DNA from: Vibrio splendidus
Lineage (GTDB): Bacteria; Pseudomonadota; Gammaproteobacteria; Enterobacterales; Vibrionaceae
Direction: 5' to 3'
NCBI RefSeq assembly: GCF_024347615.1
Contig: NZ_AP025509.1
Span: 620,001 to 684,000, forward strand
DNA: 64,000 nt
Shown here: positions 46,207-63,580 of the stretch, in pieces
How the letters are laid out: the number at the start of each line of letters is the position of its first letter
Position numbering within the stretch: the first letter of the stretch is position 1
The notes under the pieces: generated by a model
Told to the model about the DNA's origin: nothing
Databases searched by the model: none
Seen by the model: the letters and a program-made list of their open reading frames with translations, nothing else
Program-made: the position numbers and the translations under genes

Positions 46207-46540
46207 TACTGACTTAACACAACGCTGAAACTTACGTTAATTTCCAAATTCATGAAGAACTATGTGCAGTTATGAAAGGGTTTAGCCGAATAAATGAACA
46301 TTGAATCATAATGTCATCCATTTTATTAAATCCGAATCGTGACAAACAACTCGCAAAATGTCCTTAGATTATTAACGAGCCTTGAAGACAAAGCTTTCCC
46401 AGTTATCAAACTGTTAATTTAATTGATCCAGCACATATAGCGTTCAAATTCACCGAGGCTATATCAAATCAAGCTTTCAACCAAACGGTGAATAAATTAA
46501 AATTATTGGAAATAATTCTCATTTGATAGAGCCAACTACT

Positions 46541-46996
46541 ATGCGTGTACTTCTACTGATCTTAACTATCATTGCCACTCCTGCACTTGCTGAAACAAAA
46601 GTCATCAAACAAGTGATGGACATGAATTCTGAGAACATCGACAAGATGTATCAATTTATTCCTGATTACGTAGAAATCGAACCTGGTGATAAGGTGCTTT
46701 TTAAAGGAACCGTTGGCTCTCATACAGCCCATAGTATTCAAGGGATGCTTCCTAACGGCGCTAAACCTCTTATGATATCCGGGTCAAACGCTCAGGAAGT
46801 CACTTTTGATAAACCCGGAGTTTATGGCATAAAATGTAAAGTACATCACCGACACGGAATGGTGGCGCTAGTGGTCGTGGGTGACCCAAGTGTTAACTTA
46901 GAAGAAGCTCGCACTGCGGCCAAAAAACGTGTGAGTCGCCGAGCTCAGAAGAAGATGCAAGACTTGCTCGATCAAGCAGAGCAAAAGGTTCAATAA
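46541..46996 (+). CDS. Pseudoazurin-like blue copper protein
   Basis: 151 residues from the ATG at 46541; signal peptide ending ATPALA. The type 1 copper ligands align with pseudoazurin: His61 (SHTAHSI), Cys99, His102 and Met107 in CKVHHRHGM, with the same spacing (38, 3 and 5 residues). The C-terminus is an unusual basic helical tail (about residues 120-151, KKRVSRRAQKKMQDLL). Periplasmic electron carrier. Located beside the idr-like cluster, it may donate electrons to the Rieske subunit or the peroxidases (inference). Confidence 0.85.
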   Translation: MRVLLLILTIIATPALAETKVIKQVMDMNSENIDKMYQFIPDYVEIEPGDKVLFKGTVGSHTAHSIQGMLPNGAKPLMISGSNAQEVTFDKPGVYGIKCKVHHRHGMVALVVVGDPSVNLEEARTAAKKRVSRRAQKKMQDLLDQAEQKVQ

Positions 46997-47165: not shown

Positions 47166-47609
47166 TCAAACTAGCCACCCCGTTCTAAATGAAACTCCGA
47201 CAACCACAAACAAAATTGAAATAATGGTCACTGGCACAATGTGCAGTGCCATATCAACCAAGTTGTCCTTCGATAGTTTTGGAATCACACGAAAGCGTGC
47301 GTCTAGGGCCAGCAATACCGTCAGAGACAGCAACGTCAATTTAGCGGCAATGCCATGAGCCAATGGAATCGACATATCAAACCATAAGCTAACGTCCGGC
47401 AACATGTGATAAGCGAGCATCAACCCGGTCACCACTTGAACTACCAAAGCAGGCATTCCCACCTTTTCGTACCCTTGCTCGAATTCCAATAACATTTCTG
47501 GAGAACGGTGTTTCAAGACTTTAGGAAGGATAACGACGCTGAGAATAATGTGCCCTCCCGTCCAAATGGTGGCAGCCAATACATGCAAAACCAATAATAC
47601 GCCAAACAT
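47166..47609 (-). CDS. CopD-like four-helix membrane protein
   Basis: 147 residues with four membrane segments and conserved histidines (LLVLHVLAATIWTGGHIILS, HGIAAKLTLL, ALHIVP). It resembles the CopD/cytochrome b561-like group often annotated copper resistance D. It begins 9 bp after the idrA-like stop, so it is the last gene of that operon. The histidines could bind haem b and make it a membrane electron donor (inference). Confidence 0.7.
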   Translation of the reverse strand: MFGVLLVLHVLAATIWTGGHIILSVVILPKVLKHRSPEMLLEFEQGYEKVGMPALVVQVVTGLMLAYHMLPDVSLWFDMSIPLAHGIAAKLTLLSLTVLLALDARFRVIPKLSKDNLVDMALHIVPVTIISILFVVVGVSFRTGWLV

Positions 47610-47618
47610 AAACTTCCC

Positions 47619-50345
47619 TTACACAATGTTACGTGGTGCAAAGGAGAACCCTTCAAACTCACGCTTATATTTTGATTCACCAATTTTCTTTATTTTGGCG
47701 ACGCCCATTTTATAGTTGTAGTTACCACTGATTTGGTCAACTACCCTTGTTGTTAAAGCATTCGCTGGGTTCTTCATGTCCATCATATTGCAATACAACA
47801 CACCTTTCTTGGTGGCTGAGGTGACAATCGCAACGGCTTTAATCTCCGCGTAATCCAGTTGAATGTGACCATTTTTCATTAGGTTACTAAACTGAAAATC
47901 GTCTGACTCGATACCCAGAATCGTATCTTTAAAATTGGCCACCCGCTCCGAATACACCAGTACTTCATCTCCGGCTTCTATGCCCCGTTTTTCCGCATCT
48001 TCTGGGTGTACTTCAATCCAGTTTTCAGGCCAACGATGAGTGATGTAAGGCCTGCGCTCGGTATCATCAAACCCTGACTGCCAAATCTCGTTAATACGAC
48101 CATTCGAAAACCATAACTCGTCCTTTTGGGGGGTAAGCCAAGCGTGGAAATCACTGAACAGATCCCAAGGGTGCTTTTGAAGATTGACCTTCCCCGTCTG
48201 ACTATTAAATTGAGTGAGCTGTTTACGCATAATATTGGCGCCTTGAGGCCCATCTTGCAGCCCTTTTTCGACCAGATCACCCCAACTCATTTCAGTATCA
48301 TGTAGGCGTTTAGTGCCAATCAGCTTTTTGGTGTCATAGTTATAAAATACAGGGCCTTGGATCCCTTCGGTACCAAATTCAGCGAGCTTTTGATGAAGTG
48401 TTTTTCCTTCAGAATGTGCTGCAACTTTGATCATATTGAAATCTTTACGGCTACCGCGACTAAATCGCGATGACTCTTCGGCTACGTCATTCGAGTTTTG
48501 CCAATCAAACCCGTCATACCCCATCCGGGAAGCCATTTGAGCAACGATCCACCAGTCTGGCTTAGCCTGACCCGGCGCATCAGCGAACTTTTGGTAAAGG
48601 CGTAGACGACGCTCACCATTAGCGCGCATGAAATCCTCTTCCCCCCAAGTCGCGGCCGGAAAGATGATATCAGCGAGTTGTTTACCTATAGGATCACGTA
48701 AATAAATATCTTGATTGATGACGACCATTCCACCGGAATCTGCTCGTTTTTTGAGAGTATCAATAATGTGTTGTTTATCACGTCGCGTCACTTGGTGAGG
48801 GTTACGTGTTGTTAAATCGGTGAATTTCTCTTTCAACCCATAACTACCACACATAGCTTGAATCCATGTCGTACCAATGACATGGGCCATACGGGTATGC
48901 CCAGAATAGAGATATCTGTCGGTGTCTATTGAGCGTCGACGTCTACCTGCCACTTTTTCAGGTGACTTATTCCTTGGTAGTTTCCCACCCGCTAGCCCAC
49001 CTCGTTGATGCCCACCAAATCGACCAATAACACGCCCTTCTCGGCCACCAGTACCGATTATCGTTGCAAGGGAGGCGATGGCATTGGTATTCCCGGTATT
49101 ATTCGACCAATAAAAGCCCTTCTCTATACCAATTGAGGCTTTAACTCGTTGACCGTTGACAGGCATTGCCAACATCTCAGCGGCTTTGTGGATCTTCTCC
49201 ACATCAATACCCGCGATCGATGCGGCATACTCAGGTGCGTATTCTTTCTGCTCCAAATTCCATTGCTTATAATCATCAAAGCCATTCGTTTGGAATTTGC
49301 CCCAAGTGGTTCTCCACTGCCATGGCGTATTACGAGTACCCTGACCAAAACCAGAGCTAGATTCCCATTTATTATTGACCCAGTTTTTAATCCACTCGTT
49401 GTCTTGCCAGCCTTGCTCTAAGATCACTCGAGCAATTGCACCAATCACAAGATTATCGCTACCGGGATTAATATCGAGGTGCAATCCACCTTGAGATTTA
49501 AGCCACGCTATGCCTGCGGTTTCACGAGGGTTCAAAATTACGGTTTTCATTCCACGATGCACCGCAGGCATAATGAACTGCGTAAAAATGATGGTTTTGG
49601 TCTCATACGGATCCGTTCCGCAGATCATCAAAGTATCTGCCGCGCCCCAGTCATCATAACTTGGAGCAAAATTATCAAAACCCGCATCTCGAAACCCTGG
49701 GGTTGCAGTGACATCTGACGGCGTGTCGTGAAACGAAAAATTCGCGGTATTAACATGACGCAATGCATACTTTGTTATCGCATAGGTGTTTTCAATATAC
49801 TGATAGGAATAGGTTTTTACGCAGTAACTGTTGGAGCCATGCGTATCAATCACATGACGGCCGACTTGGGCCGCTATATCCAACGCAAAATCCCATTCTA
49901 CAGGTTGTAACTGACCGTTAATTCGAACAAGTGGTTGCTTCAATCGATCTTTGGTTGGTGTTTCTGGGTTATAAAGCTTTCTTGCGAGCAGTCCACCACG
50001 AACCGAAGAATCACCGCCTTTATTGACGACCTGTATGTCTTTGTCTGCGACTACAACCACATGGTGTGGTTTGCCATTATGCGAAACAATATTATGTTGC
50101 TGTGGCGAAACCCAAGCTTGTAATGCATGAACGGGGAAGTCGACAGCAAACGCATTTTCGTTAGAGCGAGCTCCACCTGAAGGGCTATTTACAGGCCAAC
50201 GATAAACCTTATAACCGCACGCCACGATACAATAATCACAGGCTGTTGTGATAACTTCAGCATGAACAGGAGGCAGTAAAGTATTAGTCGGTTGGAGGTA
50301 CTGACGGTTTAAAGGAGATTGATTGCTTGAAGAAGATTCACTCAT
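47619..50345 (-). CDS. idrA: Arsenite-oxidase-like molybdoenzyme, probable iodate reductase catalytic subunit
   Basis: 908-residue DMSO-reductase-superfamily enzyme. The N-terminus has the AioA-type [3Fe-4S] site CDYCIVACGYKVYRW (Cys36, Cys39, Cys43) with Ser114 (SSVRGG) in place of a fourth cysteine. Of the arsenite-site residues of Alcaligenes AioA (H195, E203, R419, H423), three align (His206, Arg442, His446 in GRFGGH) but the Glu is Ala214. No own export signal; as in Aio it would travel with the Tat-targeted Rieske subunit. Co-transcription with a Rieske protein and two di-haem peroxidases is the hallmark of dissimilatory iodate reductase IdrABP1P2. An Aio-like oxidase of unknown substrate is the alternative. 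Confidence 0.75.
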   Translation of the reverse strand: MSESSSSNQSPLNRQYLQPTNTLLPPVHAEVITTACDYCIVACGYKVYRWPVNSPSGGARSNENAFAVDFPVHALQAWVSPQQHNIVSHNGKPHHVVVVADKDIQVVNKGGDSSVRGGLLARKLYNPETPTKDRLKQPLVRINGQLQPVEWDFALDIAAQVGRHVIDTHGSNSYCVKTYSYQYIENTYAITKYALRHVNTANFSFHDTPSDVTATPGFRDAGFDNFAPSYDDWGAADTLMICGTDPYETKTIIFTQFIMPAVHRGMKTVILNPRETAGIAWLKSQGGLHLDINPGSDNLVIGAIARVILEQGWQDNEWIKNWVNNKWESSSGFGQGTRNTPWQWRTTWGKFQTNGFDDYKQWNLEQKEYAPEYAASIAGIDVEKIHKAAEMLAMPVNGQRVKASIGIEKGFYWSNNTGNTNAIASLATIIGTGGREGRVIGRFGGHQRGGLAGGKLPRNKSPEKVAGRRRRSIDTDRYLYSGHTRMAHVIGTTWIQAMCGSYGLKEKFTDLTTRNPHQVTRRDKQHIIDTLKKRADSGGMVVINQDIYLRDPIGKQLADIIFPAATWGEEDFMRANGERRLRLYQKFADAPGQAKPDWWIVAQMASRMGYDGFDWQNSNDVAEESSRFSRGSRKDFNMIKVAAHSEGKTLHQKLAEFGTEGIQGPVFYNYDTKKLIGTKRLHDTEMSWGDLVEKGLQDGPQGANIMRKQLTQFNSQTGKVNLQKHPWDLFSDFHAWLTPQKDELWFSNGRINEIWQSGFDDTERRPYITHRWPENWIEVHPEDAEKRGIEAGDEVLVYSERVANFKDTILGIESDDFQFSNLMKNGHIQLDYAEIKAVAIVTSATKKGVLYCNMMDMKNPANALTTRVVDQISGNYNYKMGVAKIKKIGESKYKREFEGFSFAPRNIV

Positions 50346-50929
50346 TAAACTACCTCCACATCGATCAGGTTTTCCATGCGACCAAAGATCAACCCCATAA
50401 CGCCAACTGCATAGATGTCGTCACCTTCGAGCTCGAGCAGTACTTGAGGTAAGCTCTCAAAGGCTTGACCAGACACCATAATTCCATGGCGACGCAAATC
50501 AAATGTAGATAGGTGGAATGGGCACTGCCCGACAATGCGATGCTCCCCTGTTGCTTTATAAGCACCGGTTAAAGGCCCACCTTGATGAGTACATGTCATC
50601 GAATAGGCCACAATATCGCGCTGTAACCCTATCCCACCGCCACATTCGATGTCGGATTTAACCAGCATCGCAATCGAATTTTTTCCTTCATCTGGATATT
50701 GAAAGTGAACCGGAATGTGGTTGATGAGTTGACTTAACTTTGCGATTTTCTTACGCGGGTAACCGACAACACGACCTTCAACTTGAGTTTCAGAATCAGT
50801 CCCTGCAAATAAGGTAAGAGGAACCATAGATACGGCAGTAGCCGCACCGGAATAAAGTAAAAAATCACGTCGTGACATCATGCATTTGTTGTGTCGTTTA
50901 CTTGAATTTTGCTCTGAGTTGGCGATCAT
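50345..50929 (-). CDS. idrB: Rieske [2Fe-2S] subunit of the Aio/Idr-type enzyme
   Basis: 194 residues. A twin-arginine signal (SRRDFLLYSGAATAVSM, residues 19-35) is followed by a Rieske domain with CTHQGG (Cys113, His115) and CPFHLSTFD (Cys136, His139), the arrangement of AioB/IdrB. It carries electrons between a periplasmic donor and the molybdopterin subunit and takes it through the Tat pathway. ATGA overlap with the peroxidase gene upstream and one-base overlap with idrA. Confidence 0.82.
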   Translation of the reverse strand: MIANSEQNSSKRHNKCMMSRRDFLLYSGAATAVSMVPLTLFAGTDSETQVEGRVVGYPRKKIAKLSQLINHIPVHFQYPDEGKNSIAMLVKSDIECGGGIGLQRDIVAYSMTCTHQGGPLTGAYKATGEHRIVGQCPFHLSTFDLRRHGIMVSGQAFESLPQVLLELEGDDIYAVGVMGLIFGRMENLIDVEVV

Positions 50930-52092
50930 TTTTCTGCTCCAGCAAGTTCTTCTTTAGTAAATAGCGGTTGGTATTCTGGAATGGTTGGCTCTTCAATAAA
51001 AATCTGCTCACCTGAAAATGCTTCTACAAAGCTCAATAAGTTCTTTTTATCTTGTTCCGTTAAACCAAGAGGTTGAATTAGAGCAGATTTAGTCTGAGGG
51101 TATCCAGTAGTGCGCCCATCATCTGCCACACCACCTCGGTCGTAGAAATCAATCACCGCTTCTAAAGTTGGAATGGTGCCATTGTGCATATAGGGCGCAG
51201 TGTATTTTGTATAACGTAGGCTCGGTGTGCGGAACTTACCTAACATCTCTTTGCGTTTAGCTCGAAAGTAAGCACCGGGGTCGGCCTTTGTGGTGCGGTA
51301 CATCTCTTCGGTGACACCTTTAGAATAAAGCTCAAATCTAAATGTTATCTGCGCTAATCCATCATCATTCCACCAAGGACTTGGCGGCACACCAATGTTG
51401 TAGAATTTTTGGTCAGATGCCAAAGCCCCGTTGTGACAAGCAATGCAATTCGCTTTGCCTTCAAACAGAGCTTTACCCTTCAATTGGGACTCAGACAAAG
51501 CGGTTTTGTCACCGAGTAAATAGTTGTCTATTGGTGTGTCACGTTGAACCATCGTGCGTTCAAACGCGGCTATAGCGCGCCAAGCGTTATGTATTTTCGG
51601 AGTATCATCACCAAACACTCGCTTAAAGCGTTCAACATACTCAGGAACTAAGGCTAAACGCGCTTCCATGATGTCGTCTTCACCATTACCCGCGACCGCG
51701 CCCTTCGCTGCATCTTTGGCTTGCGCTTCCAATAACATAGCGCTGCCCGCCCAGAAAAATTTGTCGTAATAAGCCGCATTAATAATCGTTTGGCTATTGC
51801 GCCAATGTACCGTACCCGGATATCCCATGGATAAGTCATCAGGAAAACCCCAGCCCTGCGATTGAATATGGCAACCAGCACATGGGCTAGTCGTATCGCC
51901 ACTTAGCCGACCGTCATAAAATAAGATCTTTCCCAACTCTATTTTTTCGGGTGTTTGTTTATTATCCACAGGCACAGGCACCTCCCCTAGAGGCTCAAAC
52001 TGTACCTTTGCATTAACAACATTGGGAAGCCCCGTCATCCCAATAAGAATAAAGAGTGCTGCCTTTAATACAGAGCGCTTAGTTACGAGCAT
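50926..52092 (-). CDS. idrP1: Di-haem cytochrome c peroxidase (IdrP1-like)
   Basis: 388 residues from the ATG at 52092, chosen for its perfect ribosome site GGAGGA and following signal peptide (AALFILIGMTGLPNVVNA). Two c-haem sites, CAGCH (71-75) and CIACH (216-220), define the MauG/CcpA family. In the iodate system the paired peroxidases are proposed to remove hydrogen peroxide formed during iodate reduction. Overlaps the upstream peroxidase gene by 14 bp. The P1/P2 labels are tentative. Confidence 0.75.
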   Translation of the reverse strand: MLVTKRSVLKAALFILIGMTGLPNVVNAKVQFEPLGEVPVPVDNKQTPEKIELGKILFYDGRLSGDTTSPCAGCHIQSQGWGFPDDLSMGYPGTVHWRNSQTIINAAYYDKFFWAGSAMLLEAQAKDAAKGAVAGNGEDDIMEARLALVPEYVERFKRVFGDDTPKIHNAWRAIAAFERTMVQRDTPIDNYLLGDKTALSESQLKGKALFEGKANCIACHNGALASDQKFYNIGVPPSPWWNDDGLAQITFRFELYSKGVTEEMYRTTKADPGAYFRAKRKEMLGKFRTPSLRYTKYTAPYMHNGTIPTLEAVIDFYDRGGVADDGRTTGYPQTKSALIQPLGLTEQDKKNLLSFVEAFSGEQIFIEEPTIPEYQPLFTKEELAGAEK

Positions 52093-53188
52093 TTGACCAA
52101 TCCTCCGTGTATTCGTAGCCGAAGTCATAGTCTAACCATTCGTATTCTTCGCCTATAAGGGGATCTCCAGATAACGATTCCAAAAAAGCCACCAGCGCCT
52201 TTTTTTCGTAGTCCGTTAGGGAAAGCGTGGTGAGTCGAGAGTCTTTGTTTGAGTCTTCGCCACCACCTTGATTATAAAATTCAACCACATCTTCAAGCGT
52301 GGCAAGCATGCCATTGTGCATATACGGCGCAGTTTGACTGAGCTCTCGCAGCGTTGGCGTTATGAACTTACCGCGATCGCTACCATCCGCTTTATGAGTT
52401 TGAACATGAGCACCAACATCGCGCTTTAACGTTAAGTAATCTTGCACACCCATAAACATGTTGTAGGCAAGAAAAGATTGATGTCGCATGGGGTCTAAAA
52501 ATATCTCATGATTTTCAGGCACTCCGGTATTGTGTGCCTTTCCGTCCGAAAACAGAGCGCCACGATGGCATTGGCTGCACCCCGCTTTGCCTGTGAACAG
52601 CTTTTCTCCCTGGATCGCTAAGTCGCTAAGCTCGCCCTTGTCAAAAGGGACATTCTTCGAAGTCAGTGTCTTTAGGTATTCAGGCAGAGCTTTGCGCACT
52701 CCGCCATTTGACGGTTCTCCAAGATTGGCCGCTTTAAACATCTCGACGTATATTGGGTCTTGTTTGAGGCGTTCCTGCATCAAACGCATGTCCATATTCA
52801 TCAGCCAGTCTTCAGTGATATTTTCCCGAACCACATCGTTTAGGTTGGTGCCAATACGACCATCGTGAAACCACACCTCTTTATAGGCTGCATTAATAAG
52901 TGTTGGAGCATTACGAAATCCATCACTCCCCGTATACGCAGGGCTTAACGGTTCAGGGTAAGAAAAACCATTAGACGGAATGTGGCAACTGGAACACGAA
53001 ATCGAGTCATCCCCGGACAAGCGCGTATCAAAAAACAGTCGTTTGCCGAGTTCTGCTTGAGCTGGATCGATATCTAAAGGAGGCAAAGCAGCATGTAAAC
53101 TCATCGTAAAAAAGGAGCACAATACTACGCAGACTTTTCGAGCGAAGCTTTGAAGTGTGGACTGTGCTCGTAAAACACTCATCGGCAT
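52079..53188 (-). CDS. idrP2: Di-haem cytochrome c peroxidase (IdrP2-like)
   Basis: 369 residues (or 367 from ATG 53182, which has GGAA at better spacing). Signal peptide ending SLHA. Two c-haem sites CSSCH (65-69) and CSQCH (204-208), and family motifs LFFDTRLSGD and TPTLRELSQTAPYMHNG. Clearly a paralogue of the next gene. First gene of a five-gene operon (P2-P1-B-A-CopD-like) reading away from a divergent promoter with an FNR-like palindrome. Confidence 0.75.
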   Translation of the reverse strand: MPMSVLRAQSTLQSFARKVCVVLCSFFTMSLHAALPPLDIDPAQAELGKRLFFDTRLSGDDSISCSSCHIPSNGFSYPEPLSPAYTGSDGFRNAPTLINAAYKEVWFHDGRIGTNLNDVVRENITEDWLMNMDMRLMQERLKQDPIYVEMFKAANLGEPSNGGVRKALPEYLKTLTSKNVPFDKGELSDLAIQGEKLFTGKAGCSQCHRGALFSDGKAHNTGVPENHEIFLDPMRHQSFLAYNMFMGVQDYLTLKRDVGAHVQTHKADGSDRGKFITPTLRELSQTAPYMHNGMLATLEDVVEFYNQGGGEDSNKDSRLTTLSLTDYEKKALVAFLESLSGDPLIGEEYEWLDYDFGYEYTEDWSNARN

Positions 53189-53246: not shown

Positions 53247-53260
53247 ATGATTAGGATCAT
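53247..53260. promoter_or_regulatory. FNR-like palindrome in the idr/HEAT divergent promoter
   Basis: ATGAT-TAGG-ATCAT retains the TGAT/ATCA core of the FNR site and differs only at the outermost base of each half. It lies about 60-65 bp from both divergent start codons. Confidence 0.5.
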
Positions 53261-53319
53261 ACAATTCGGAATGATAAGAGTTATTATTCAAACTTGTTAG
53301 TTCAGTGGTACTAAAACCT

Positions 53320-55302
53320 ATGTCTCTCGATAAATTCCTTCTCTGTGTCGAACATACCTATCTTGCTGGGAACGTATCCGATCAAATTCTAGCAACTCAG
53401 TTTCTCGCTCAATTTTCGCAAACTAAACACCTCTTGCTTACAGGTTTAGAATCCAACGTTGTAGATGTTGTTATCACAAGCCTAGAATGTTTAGCTCAAG
53501 ACAAGCATGCTCCTATCAAAGACATCATCCACTGCTTTCAACTGTGGGATGACAGCGAAGTAAAACTAGCCGCATTGAATGCTGTTGAGCACAACAACGA
53601 TTCAGAACAAGCGAAGGGATTATTGATAGACGTCGTTTGTGACGATATCGATTACTGGGAGGGTGAATGGAATGATGGTGATGATATCCGTTTGAATGCT
53701 GCACGTATTTTGGATAACCATGAAATTAATTTAGATTATATTCAAGCGAGTCGTTTACTGCCCCTACTTCGAAGTGACCCAGAGCCTGATGTTCAGGTCA
53801 AACTAGTCTCAGTGCTATCGCGTCACTCACCGGCACTACTTAAAGAGAACTTTGCAGTAACGCGCACAAACGATATGCGTATGTTATTGAAAAGCACACC
53901 GGATAAAATAACGTTATTCAAAGCCACGCAACACCAAGATCTACGTTGCCAGCAAATCGCCTTTCAACGGCTGTCTCAAATGAACAGTCGTGAGTATTTG
54001 CAAATGTTTTTAACTGGCCTTTCGCACTTAGACCCACTGATAAGACAAACATCTCTCAGTACATTGGAAAAATGGAATTACCAAGTCGACATTAAGCACC
54101 TTGGTCAGAACGACTTATTACAAGAAATTCCAATCGATATCCTTTCGGCACTGCTTAGCGACAATCACAAGCAACAACTCGTGAATCAATGGCAAGATAA
54201 ACGGCACCCTTCTCATTCAATAACGGCGATGCTTCAATTAATTTCGAGCTTAAACCCGCAGAGTAAACAAGCCCAACTTAGCCGCTTTATGCCAGTCTTT
54301 TATGAGAAGTTTTCGAGCTTAGACGAAGCGACTCAACTTGATTGCTTGAATGTTTTATTAAGTGACATATCACAAACCCTAAGCCTTGCCTTTATCCGTC
54401 AGCAACTGCAATCGGGCACTTGCAGCAATTCAGTGAAGCGACAACTCATTGAGCACCTATCTCATACTCTAGCACCGAGTTCTCAGGCCTATCTAAAAGA
54501 GCTCATTGTCGACTTACCTGTAATTATTACAACCAATCAAACAGAAAGAGAAACGGCGACAACAGAAGTACCACATCGACAACTTAACGATCCGAATGAT
54601 GACGCTAGTGCCACACAACCTCCTATCACTTCCACGCTTGATTCGTTGAGGCAATCAGCGCATTCAAAACCTTCAACAAGACATGCTCGAACCAAACGAG
54701 TTGCAATCGAAAGCTTGTCAAACCTAGCGTTAGCGATTGAATACTGTCAAGACAAGCAATATCTGGTGGAGCTTTGCTCTACTGAAAAACTTACCAGCCT
54801 ATCCAACGCTGAGTTTCACGCGCTAGTCATTGCCTTGCGTTGTCATCATATCAACTTGACCGACGTTGAGACCCCCTACTTCAACCAATCGGTATTAGAT
54901 CTAGTCTTGAATGATGATTGTTCCAACCTCGAAAGTATCATCGATTGGCTTGGCACTCTCTGGATCGATCAACACCGTTTACAACTAATAGCCTCTGAAA
55001 GCCTCCCTCTAAAAGTCTGTTTAGTGCGATATACCACTGACGAAACAGAATTACTCGGGCTACTAAAGCACCCTTATATTGGTATCCAAATCGCGGCGCT
55101 GAAGCAATTAAAACAGTCTGGTGGTTCACATGAAGAGCTAGTTAGCTTGATCTTAGAAGAGCCAGTACTTTATCCTCAAATCTCTCTTTTTGATGCTAAT
55201 ACAGTCTACAACGTACTTGCTGAGAAAATCCAAGGTTCACCTTCAATAGCTCTACAAGCTGCCCTTGCGTTTCTTTGTACACAAAATATGCAAATCACAT
55301 AA
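53320..55302 (+). CDS. HEAT-repeat protein divergent from the idr-like operon
   Basis: 660 residues from the ATG at 53320 (a GTG frame starts at 53305). Helical repeats of HEAT type occur through the N-terminal ~400 residues (for example DDSEVKLAALNAVE, DPEPDVQVKLVSVLSRH, DPLIRQTSLSTLEKW). A polar Thr/Ser/Pro-rich linker (about 405-460) and a second helical part follow. No signal peptide, so cytoplasmic. No catalytic motif recognised. HEAT scaffolds can serve as maturation factors; shared promoter suggests a link with the molybdoenzyme (inference). Confidence 0.7.
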   Translation: MSLDKFLLCVEHTYLAGNVSDQILATQFLAQFSQTKHLLLTGLESNVVDVVITSLECLAQDKHAPIKDIIHCFQLWDDSEVKLAALNAVEHNNDSEQAKGLLIDVVCDDIDYWEGEWNDGDDIRLNAARILDNHEINLDYIQASRLLPLLRSDPEPDVQVKLVSVLSRHSPALLKENFAVTRTNDMRMLLKSTPDKITLFKATQHQDLRCQQIAFQRLSQMNSREYLQMFLTGLSHLDPLIRQTSLSTLEKWNYQVDIKHLGQNDLLQEIPIDILSALLSDNHKQQLVNQWQDKRHPSHSITAMLQLISSLNPQSKQAQLSRFMPVFYEKFSSLDEATQLDCLNVLLSDISQTLSLAFIRQQLQSGTCSNSVKRQLIEHLSHTLAPSSQAYLKELIVDLPVIITTNQTERETATTEVPHRQLNDPNDDASATQPPITSTLDSLRQSAHSKPSTRHARTKRVAIESLSNLALAIEYCQDKQYLVELCSTEKLTSLSNAEFHALVIALRCHHINLTDVETPYFNQSVLDLVLNDDCSNLESIIDWLGTLWIDQHRLQLIASESLPLKVCLVRYTTDETELLGLLKHPYIGIQIAALKQLKQSGGSHEELVSLILEEPVLYPQISLFDANTVYNVLAEKIQGSPSIALQAALAFLCTQNMQIT

Positions 55303-56867: not shown

Positions 56868-56941
56868 TGGAGGCGCCTCCCGGAGTCGAACCGAGGTCCA
56901 CGGATTTGCAATCCGCTGCATAGCCACTCTGCCAAGGCGCC
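56868..56941 (-). tRNA. tRNA-Cys (GCA)
   Basis: 74 nt including encoded CCA; cloverleaf GGCGCCU / AGGCGCC acceptor stem, anticodon GCA at 56907-56909. Last gene of array 1. Confidence 0.97.
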
Positions 56942-57005
56942 TTCAATAGTGTTTTAAGAGAACAACTCTTTTGAACATTACCAAACAAGGTAACAATCAA
57001 ATAGA

Positions 57006-57092
57006 TGGTGCCCCGGGCCGGACTTGAACCGGCACAACGCGAACGTCGAGGGATTTTAAATCCCTTGTGTCTACCAATTCCACCACCAGGGC
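57006..57092 (-). tRNA. tRNA-Leu (UAA), A:U variant of the variable arm
   Basis: 87 nt with encoded CCA, long class II variable arm and anticodon UAA within GGGATTTAAAATCCC. Differs from the other two Leu copies only at two positions that pair with each other in the variable arm (A:U here, G:C there). Confidence 0.96.
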
Positions 57093-57172
57093 ACGCAATT
57101 CTTTATTGCGATGCCGATTACTGAAAAGTAAAACACCATCTTAATGTCAAAATGAATCAACATTACAAAATT

Positions 57173-57248
57173 TGGAGCGATACATCGGGTTCGAACCGAT
57201 GACCTCAACCTTGGCAAGGTTGCGCTCTACCAACTGAGCTAGTATCGC
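57173..57248 (-). tRNA. tRNA-Gly (GCC)
   Basis: 76 nt with encoded CCA; anticodon GCC in CUUGCCAAG; acceptor GCGAUAC / GUAUCGC. Confidence 0.97.
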
Positions 57249-57296
57249 AATTTCATTCATCTAATTTCTCATCGATTAAATAAGAGAGAAAGAGAA

Positions 57297-57370
57297 TGGA
57301 GGCGCCTCCCGGAGTCGAACCGAGGTCCACGGATTTGCAATCCGCTGCATAGCCACTCTGCCAAGGCGCC
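57297..57370 (-). tRNA. tRNA-Cys (GCA)
   Basis: 74 nt, identical in sequence to the tRNA-Cys at 56868. Confidence 0.97.
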
Positions 57371-57453
57371 TTTATCAACATAAAAATATATTGAAGTGTT
57401 TAAAGAGAACCACTCTTTGTTCAACACTCTACTTAAAGTAGAAACTAGATAGA

Positions 57454-57540
57454 TGGTGCCCCGGGCCGGACTTGAACCGGCACAGCGCGAACGCCGAGGG
57501 ATTTTAAATCCCTTGTGTCTACCAATTCCACCACCAGGGC
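57454..57540 (-). tRNA. tRNA-Leu (UAA)
   Basis: 87 nt; first gene of array 1. Its 5' flank (57541-57590) repeats, diverged, the spacer found upstream of the other Leu copies, showing unit duplication. Confidence 0.97.
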
Positions 57541-63075: not shown

Positions 63076-63149
63076 TGGAGGCGCCTCCCGGAGTCGAACC
63101 GAGGTCCACGGATTTGCAATCCGCTGCATAGCCACTCTGCCAAGGCGCC
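63076..63149 (-). tRNA. tRNA-Cys (GCA)
   Basis: 74 nt, same sequence as the other tRNA-Cys copies; last gene of array 2. Confidence 0.97.
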
Positions 63150-63213
63150 TTCAATAGTGTTTTAAGAGAACAACTCTTTTGAACATTACCAAACAAGATA
63201 ACAATCAAATAGA

Positions 63214-63300
63214 TGGTGCCCCGGGCCGGACTTGAACCGGCACAGCGCGAACGCCGAGGGATTTTAAATCCCTTGTGTCTACCAATTCCACCACCAGGGC
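63214..63300 (-). tRNA. tRNA-Leu (UAA)
   Basis: 87 nt, identical to the copy at 57454 (G:C form of the variable arm). Confidence 0.97.
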
Positions 63301-63380
63301 ACGCAATTCTTTATTGCGATGCCGATTACTGAAAAGTAAAACACCATCTTAATGTCAAAATGAATCAACATTACAAAATT

Positions 63381-63456
63381 TGGAGCGATACATCGGGTTC
63401 GAACCGATGACCTCAACCTTGGCAAGGTTGCGCTCTACCAACTGAGCTAGTATCGC
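63381..63456 (-). tRNA. tRNA-Gly (GCC)
   Basis: 76 nt, identical to the copy at 57173. Confidence 0.97.
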
Positions 63457-63506
63457 AATTTCATTCTTCTAATTTCTTACCTTATCAAAACGTAAGAGAA
63501 AGAGAA

Positions 63507-63580
63507 TGGAGGCGCCTCCCGGAGTCGAACCGAGGTCCACGGATTTGCAATCCGCTGCATAGCCACTCTGCCAAGGCGCC
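63507..63580 (-). tRNA. tRNA-Cys (GCA)
   Basis: 74 nt; first gene of array 2, 56 bp after the promoter -10 element. Confidence 0.97.

Follow-up and report, generated by a model that had tools for sequence, protein, structure and literature searches.

A predicted marine-type iodate reductase operon in Vibrio splendidus and its candidate HEAT-repeat partner

The stretch of Vibrio splendidus DNA analysed here (64,000 nucleotides, positions 620,001 to 684,000 of contig NZ_AP025509.1, assembly GCF_024347615.1; hereafter the window) carries a gene cluster of the type for the dissimilatory iodate reductase Idr, which converts iodate, one of the forms of iodine in seawater, to iodide. Five genes on the minus strand, running from 53188 to 47166, form an operon in the order idrP2-idrP1-idrB-idrA-CopD-like gene. 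The first, idrP2 (52079..53188), named by the published order, encodes a di-haem c peroxidase of the MauG/CCP family with CX2CH motifs at residues 65 and 204, and idrP1 (50926..52128) encodes a second one with these motifs at residues 83 and 228. The two overlap by 50 bp if idrP1 begins at the listed ATG and by 14 bp if it begins at its likely start, an internal ATG 12 codons later at 52092. Next come idrB (50345..50929), which overlaps idrP1 by 4 bp and encodes a Rieske [2Fe-2S] subunit with a twin-arginine translocation (Tat) signal, and idrA (47619..50345), which overlaps idrB by 1 bp and encodes the molybdopterin catalytic subunit. A gap of 9 bp separates idrA from the gene for a CopD-like membrane protein (47166..47609), which closes the operon only within the Vibrio group to which the window belongs. 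The source genome comprises 5.88 Mb in two contigs and holds a single full-length IdrA, on the contig labelled C2.

A preliminary description, made from the sequence alone, had recognised these five genes and their domain types, and both their coordinates and Pfam searches agree with it. It missed, however, one neighbour on each side, both of which recur beside idr in relatives. A pseudoazurin-like cupredoxin (46523..46996, plus strand, likely start ATG 46541) is convergent with idrA, and a HEAT-repeat protein (53305..55302, plus strand, likely start ATG 53320) is encoded divergently from the operon. Between the latter gene and idrP2, 59-72 bp upstream of idrP2, lies the inverted repeat ATGATCCTAATCAT (53247..53260, minus strand).

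The domain content and cofactor motifs of the four core proteins are those of an iodate reductase. Pfam assigns CCP_MauG to both peroxidases, each of which has two CX2CH motifs, Rieske and TAT_signal (PF10518) to IdrB, and Rieske_3, Molybdopterin and Molydop_binding to IdrA. The [3Fe-4S] motif CX2CX3CX70S is present in IdrA as C36, C39, C43 and S114, exactly the residues that the preliminary description had pointed to. IdrB carries the Tat motif SRRDFL and the Rieske motif CXHX20CX2H. The motifs published for Azoarcus DN11 IdrABP1P2 are CX2CX3CX70S, a Tat signal, CXHX18CX2H and CX2CH, and the Rieske spacer of the window is thus two residues longer than that of DN11; among 100 marine-type IdrB proteins, X20 occurs in 82 and X18 in 18. 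The NCBI arsenite-oxidase models score above their cut-offs on both subunits (TIGR02693 on IdrA, 388.9 bits against 359.05; TIGR02694 on IdrB, 112.7 bits against 95.65), and this is the probable reason for the name 'arsenate reductase (azurin)' given to relatives.

The order of the genes, P-P-B-A, had been suggested to mark a variant of the system. We reject this suggestion, as idrP2, idrP1, idrB, idrA is the order in strains SCT and IR-12 and in the metagenome-assembled genome (MAG) described in PMC10989891, and the two peroxidases are reported always to precede idrAB (PMC8801600). The same order recurs at every compared locus that yielded all four genes, among them one on an Azonexus plasmid, whose IdrA shares 48% identity with that of the window. 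idr genes were previously reported in 145 genomes, with Vibrio and Moritella among the named carriers (PMC8692401). The operon itself is of a known kind, and its occurrence in Vibrio has been published before.

We placed the 908-residue IdrA in a tree of 57 chosen sequences, built by a quick method and rooted at its midpoint, in which the arsenite oxidases (AioA) form long branches. The window IdrA belongs to a marine clade of 39 sequences (support 99) from Vibrionaceae, Moritella, Oceanospirillaceae, Thiotrichaceae, Sedimenticola and Roseobacters. Its sister is an Azonexus-type clade of 13 sequences (support 100) from Azonexus, Sulfurivermis, Halomonas and a Rhodocyclaceae MAG, and the AioA proteins (n=5) lie outside both, across a branch of 2.37. 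The window protein is 66-97% identical to members of its own clade, 45-49% to the Azonexus type and 29-31% to AioA; the nearest named relatives are Vibrio tasmaniensis (97%) and V. splendidus (96%). We infer that the Azonexus-type sister is the clade of proven iodate respirers, since its loci show the accessory genes described for these organisms (a two-component system, a c-type cytochrome and moaA); the two are equated through these genes and not through the respirers' named sequences. The accessory genes vary within the proven-respirer clade (PMC8801600), and no two-component system, c551 or moaA was recognised in the part of the window's neighbourhood that was read.

The two Idr clades and AioA also differ at one active-site position. 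We compared 468 sequences, comprising 109 loci and 359 listed proteins (overlapping sets drawn from the best matches), each assigned to whichever clade its identity to the window or the Azonexus protein indicated. At the position matching residue 214 of the window IdrA, all 341 marine-type sequences have a neutral residue (Ser in 326, Ala in 14, Pro in 1), whereas 122 of 122 Azonexus-type sequences have Asp and all five AioA have Glu. This position sits in an ungapped stretch near the molybdenum site, where the AioA segment HNRPAYNSE ends in the Glu, which we take to be Glu203 of the Alcaligenes enzyme. The window has Ala at this position, and so has neither the Asp of the Azonexus-type subclade nor the marks of AioAB, namely the active-site Glu and a lack of peroxidases. 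All 468 sequences keep window residues His206, Arg442 and His446; they also keep the cluster residues, with the exception of two gapped rows of the Azonexus-type clade. The tree and these residues together reject an identity as AioA, despite the NCBI model that calls the protein an arsenite oxidase, and the cofactor motifs, the position of AioA outside the Idr clades and the P-P-B-A synteny uphold the Idr-type identification made in the preliminary description. We therefore consider that the cluster is a complete idrP2-P1-B-A operon and encodes a marine subtype of the dissimilatory-type iodate reductase; this forms part of an explanation that, taken as a whole, we favour and regard as probable. 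A marine clade with a neutral active-site position looks new as an Idr variant feature, judging from the sequences compared.

The HEAT-repeat gene is the commonest neighbour of idr after the core genes. Its product gives weak Pfam HEAT matches, below cut-off, and has no signal peptide by eye. For neighbour counts we used 78 of the 109 loci, having dropped 26 near-duplicates and the 5 AioA loci, and an iterated profile detected HEAT relatives near idr in 45 of these. The gene is divergent upstream of idr in Vibrio, Moritella, Marinomonas and several Oceanospirillales loci, and lies downstream of idrA in Ruegeria, Pseudovibrio and Hyphomicrobiales, followed in Ruegeria by pseudoazurin. Across 196 Vibrio genomes, HEAT (E<=1e-8) and IdrA (E<=1e-100) were found in the identical 19 genomes, and the two Vibrio genomes with two idr copies also carry two HEAT copies. 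In both of these genomes (G003, loci L116 and L117; G036, loci L118 and L119) the two idr operons belong to different subclades, and in G003 one of the HEAT copies is broken into two pieces that lie in two frames. In another strain, Vibrio sp. THAF190c (NZ_CP045339.1, locus L131), the four idr genes, HEAT and pseudoazurin reside on a replicon listed as a plasmid, which may be a second chromosome, judging from its size of 1.7 Mb.

Beyond Vibrio, the pairing was followed in a class sample (274 genomes; full-length HEAT defined as 246 bits or more) and a phylum sample (319 genomes; HEAT at E<=1e-30). In the class sample, IdrA and full-length HEAT occur in 10 genomes each and together in nine; at E<=1e-8 the HEAT profile matches 58 genomes, of which the remaining 48 have partial matches (80.5 bits or less) and were excluded from the family. 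The genome with IdrA and no full-length HEAT (G320) appears to be of the Azonexus type, and one of the nine shared genomes (G423) encodes an IdrA that is divergent (1359 bits) and carries Ser at the key position. HEAT and IdrA lie on different contigs in five of the nine, in four of which the IdrA contig is short (9-21 kb), such that contig breaks may hide closeness; in G398, where the idr operon lies in a 110-kb contig, no HEAT was found in the 19 kb read around it. IdrA occurs in four genomes of the phylum sample and HEAT only in G000, while two of the IdrA-positive genomes without HEAT (G486 and G686) carry the Asp signature. Pooled over the three samples, HEAT is present in 27 of 28 marine-type genomes and in none of 3 Azonexus-type genomes, although related genomes are not independent trials. 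Outside Vibrio, the HEAT gene frequently lies away from idr. On these genome counts, a HEAT partner co-occurring with marine-type IdrA looks new. The open literature, supplements excluded, yielded nothing relevant on HEAT-repeat proteins with iodate and nothing on a HEAT-repeat chaperone for molybdoenzymes, and a term search of the main text available for PMC11445184, PMC8801600 and PMC8692401 found no mention of a HEAT-repeat protein.

An AlphaFold2 model of the HEAT protein consists of two alpha-solenoid parts (residues 1-399 and 465-660, numbered from ATG 53320), with a mean predicted local distance difference test score (pLDDT) of 82.6 and a predicted template modelling score (pTM) of 0.66. 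They are joined by a low-confidence linker that holds S438, a Ser in 30 of 30 aligned rows. A Foldseek search with the model returned, among the best 50 matches, the PP2A scaffold, importins and other general HEAT/ARM solenoids, so the predicted fold says 'binding scaffold' and no more. The window protein is 49-60% identical to those of its group, where IdrA is 96-97% identical, and judging from these identities the HEAT protein is fast-evolving. Four sister loci (L029, L109, L110 and L112) have HEAT proteins 84-95% identical to one another and 49-50% identical to that of the window, with IdrA again at 96-97%; either the window allele was replaced through recombination or it changed very fast. 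We propose that the HEAT protein is most likely a dedicated cytoplasmic partner of marine-type IdrA, acting as a maturation or export chaperone, because it follows IdrA and not the two-component genes found at some idr loci, and because IdrA needs both folding and export on the Tat signal of IdrB.

The second neighbour suggests a route for electrons. The pseudoazurin-like protein scores 85.9 bits with TIGR02375, below the cut-off of 109.85, and lies above the cut-off of PF00127. Such a gene was found in 12 of the 196 Vibrio genomes (E<=1e-6), all of them IdrA-positive and all with the gene adjacent to idr. At nine of 21 Vibrio idr loci a small cytochrome c (~102 residues, labelled c551 here) follows idrA, and the 21 loci divide into 12 with pseudoazurin and nine with the cytochrome, with both at one, neither at one and exactly one of the two at 19. 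This alternation fits interchangeable donors to IdrB, as far as gene content can indicate, and it looks new as a variant feature. We propose pseudoazurin as the electron donor to IdrB in the window strain; a cytochrome c1 gene is present in its genome, and a quinol-bc1-cupredoxin route is therefore possible. Nothing on pseudoazurin with iodate reductase was found in the open literature, supplements excluded, and the available main text contains no 'azurin' in PMC11445184 or PMC8801600 and no 'pseudoazurin' in PMC8692401.

The idr cluster is described as having no dedicated quinol dehydrogenase (PMC8692401). At 10 of the 78 loci a gene from a single sequence cluster lies near idr (upstream in L046, L048, L058, L064, L073, L078, L095, L099 and L108, downstream in L104). 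The member in L058, the only locus of these whose proteins were run against Pfam, is a cytochrome bd-like subunit I, and after it come a small c-type cytochrome and a 782-residue cytochrome with an EB_dh domain. This may perhaps be a dedicated quinol dehydrogenase.

The repeat ATGATCCTAATCAT has the core TGATN4ATCA, and we liken it to an FNR-type site on the basis of what we take to be the FNR consensus. Of the 92 upstream regions with sufficiently long flanks, 13 contain the core, compared with a mean of 0.72 and a maximum of 4 in 300 Markov shuffles; it should be noted that the loci are related, which makes this count suggestive only. This candidate site would probably favour idr expression at low oxygen. 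No sigma-54 promoter was found upstream of idrP2 in the window, and the strict pattern was present in one scanned locus, L040. A low-oxygen induction of idr is reported for Roseovarius azorensis (PMC11445184), with which the FNR-type site in the window is in line.

Based on these observations, we propose that IdrAB would be assembled in the cytoplasm, where the HEAT-repeat protein would act as the partner of marine-type IdrA, most likely in its maturation or export, and that the complex would then be exported by Tat on the signal of IdrB. In the periplasm, electrons would pass from quinol through bc1 and pseudoazurin to the Rieske centre of IdrB, and on through the [3Fe-4S] cluster of IdrA to molybdenum, where iodate would be reduced to hypoiodous acid. 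IdrP1 and IdrP2 would clear H2O2 or similar oxidants, the role proposed for them in SCT and IR-12, and low-oxygen expression would probably be favoured through the FNR-type site. We infer that this Vibrio strain may reduce iodate. A more specific claim, that the marine iodate reductase is a distinct subtype that needs a dedicated, fast-evolving HEAT chaperone for its maturation and that receives electrons from pseudoazurin in some cases and from a small cytochrome c in others, we hold tentatively, as possible but short of probable.

Several observations weigh against this scheme. We found no activity data in the literature for idr-bearing Vibrio, all experimentally confirmed iodate respirers fell within one small IdrA clade as of 2022 (PMC8801600), and the window IdrA lies outside the clade that we equate with them, at 45-49% identity and with Ala in place of Asp. 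In R. azorensis, iodate reductase activity of the crude extract was below detection, and the strains of that study did not grow anaerobically on iodate (PMC11445184). The main substrate of the marine-type enzyme could be arsenite, another oxyanion or reactive halogen species, with iodate reduction at most a side reaction; besides the missing extract activity, the neutral residue in 341 of 341 marine-type sequences, as against Asp in 122 of 122 Azonexus-type sequences and Glu in five of five AioA, speaks for such a shift, and so do the many relatives named arsenate reductase (azurin) or arsenite oxidase and the arsenite-oxidase model that passes its cut-off. We regard it as decidedly unlikely, given that every locus with sufficient flank has two di-haem peroxidases ahead of idrB-idrA, an arrangement shared with proven Idr and absent from the five AioA loci, and that identity to AioA is ~30%. 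Moreover, three idr-bearing marine Alphaproteobacteria reduce iodate, and in R. azorensis iodate induces idr and IdrA is the top protein of the active gel band (PMC11445184), although the IdrA of these strains was not placed by sequence here.

The role of the HEAT protein faces objections of its own. HEAT was not detected near idr at 33 of the 78 loci, some of which are short contigs, but L048, L053, L073 and L099 have ~10 kb on both sides; G288, a 90%-complete MAG, has HEAT without IdrA; and G479, marine-type by its residues, has no HEAT match in its genome (E<=1e-30). The idr operon of this last genome (L148), an exception to the IdrA-HEAT pairing, has a divergent pseudoazurin-like gene. The best 50 Foldseek matches are general HEAT/ARM proteins and do not point to a chaperone. 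The HEAT protein could instead be a regulator in an iodate-sensing circuit with a two-component system, since in V. sinaloensis (L031) its gene adjoins, in the same orientation, a sensor kinase and a sigma-54 response regulator, and genes clustered in the same group stand beside HEAT in Moritella (L033), Photobacterium (L034), Enterovibrio (L037) and Marinomonas (L038). The kinase found with idr elsewhere has, however, no close relative in the window genome (best 26%), and no two-component genes lie beside HEAT in the window's lineage, and yet HEAT is kept; in Ruegeria the HEAT gene is collinear with the idr operon, with idrA before it and pseudoazurin after it. We consider a regulator unlikely and prefer a partner of the enzyme. 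The CopD-like protein (PF05425, 33.5 bits, barely above the cut-off of 32.1), which had also been proposed to mark a variant, could for its part belong to a new variant of Idr as its dedicated quinol dehydrogenase in the membrane, in keeping with the 9 bp that separate it from idrA in the window as well as in L029, L030 and L109-L112, among which it is 95-100% identical. This seems very improbable indeed: searched for in the 196 Vibrio genomes (E<=1e-6), the gene is carried by 14, of which 5 (the window's group) have it next to idr and 9 have it at another site. Six of its holders have no idr, it does not adjoin idr in 14 of the 19 idr-positive genomes, and the window genome offers a cytochrome c1 gene and with it, probably, a bc1 complex. 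Its distribution therefore rejects it as a new Idr subunit and defeats its use as a variant mark, and the CopD-like protein is probably not an Idr component.

Iodide in surface seawater, reacting with ozone, is a main source of atmospheric iodine (PMC11445184). As the operon is present in 19 of 196 Vibrio genomes and absent from most, the marine subtype is directly testable in an easily grown genus. A gene that tracks marine-type IdrA across genomes would show what the subtype needs beyond idrABP1P2, and matters both for heterologous expression and for the genome-based prediction of iodate reducers. Elsewhere in the window, two tRNA arrays (56868-57540, Cys-Leu-Gly-Cys-Leu, and 63076-63580, Cys-Leu-Gly-Cys), ~5.5 kb apart, appear to be a duplication.

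Compared with known systems, the cluster shares with IdrABP1P2 of SCT, IR-12, Azoarcus DN11 and Aromatoleum TC-10 the four core genes in the order P2-P1-B-A, the [3Fe-4S] and Rieske motifs, the Tat signal and the CX2CH motifs. It differs from the SCT/IR-12-type clade, as equated through neighbour genes, in an IdrA identity of 45-49% and in Ala where that clade has Asp, and Azonexus-type genomes (n=3 in our samples) have no full-length HEAT match. With AioAB it has in common the cofactor motifs, the B-A gene pair and the conserved His, Arg and His positions; an identity of ~30%, Ala in place of Glu and the lack of peroxidases at the five AioA loci seen set the two apart. The marine Alphaproteobacteria Roseovarius azorensis, Notoacmeibacter marinus and Aliiroseovarius sediminilitoris resemble the window strain in carrying idrABP1P2 and reduce iodate at low oxygen (PMC11445184). 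Ruegeria, Roseibium and a Roseovarius strain, the relatives compared here, have marine-type IdrA 67-68% identical to that of the window, and in Ruegeria HEAT and pseudoazurin follow idrA, whereas the Vibrio HEAT gene is divergent upstream. Overall, the window cluster stands apart from known Idr through its candidate HEAT partner, an active-site signature that separates three groups and the alternation of putative donors.

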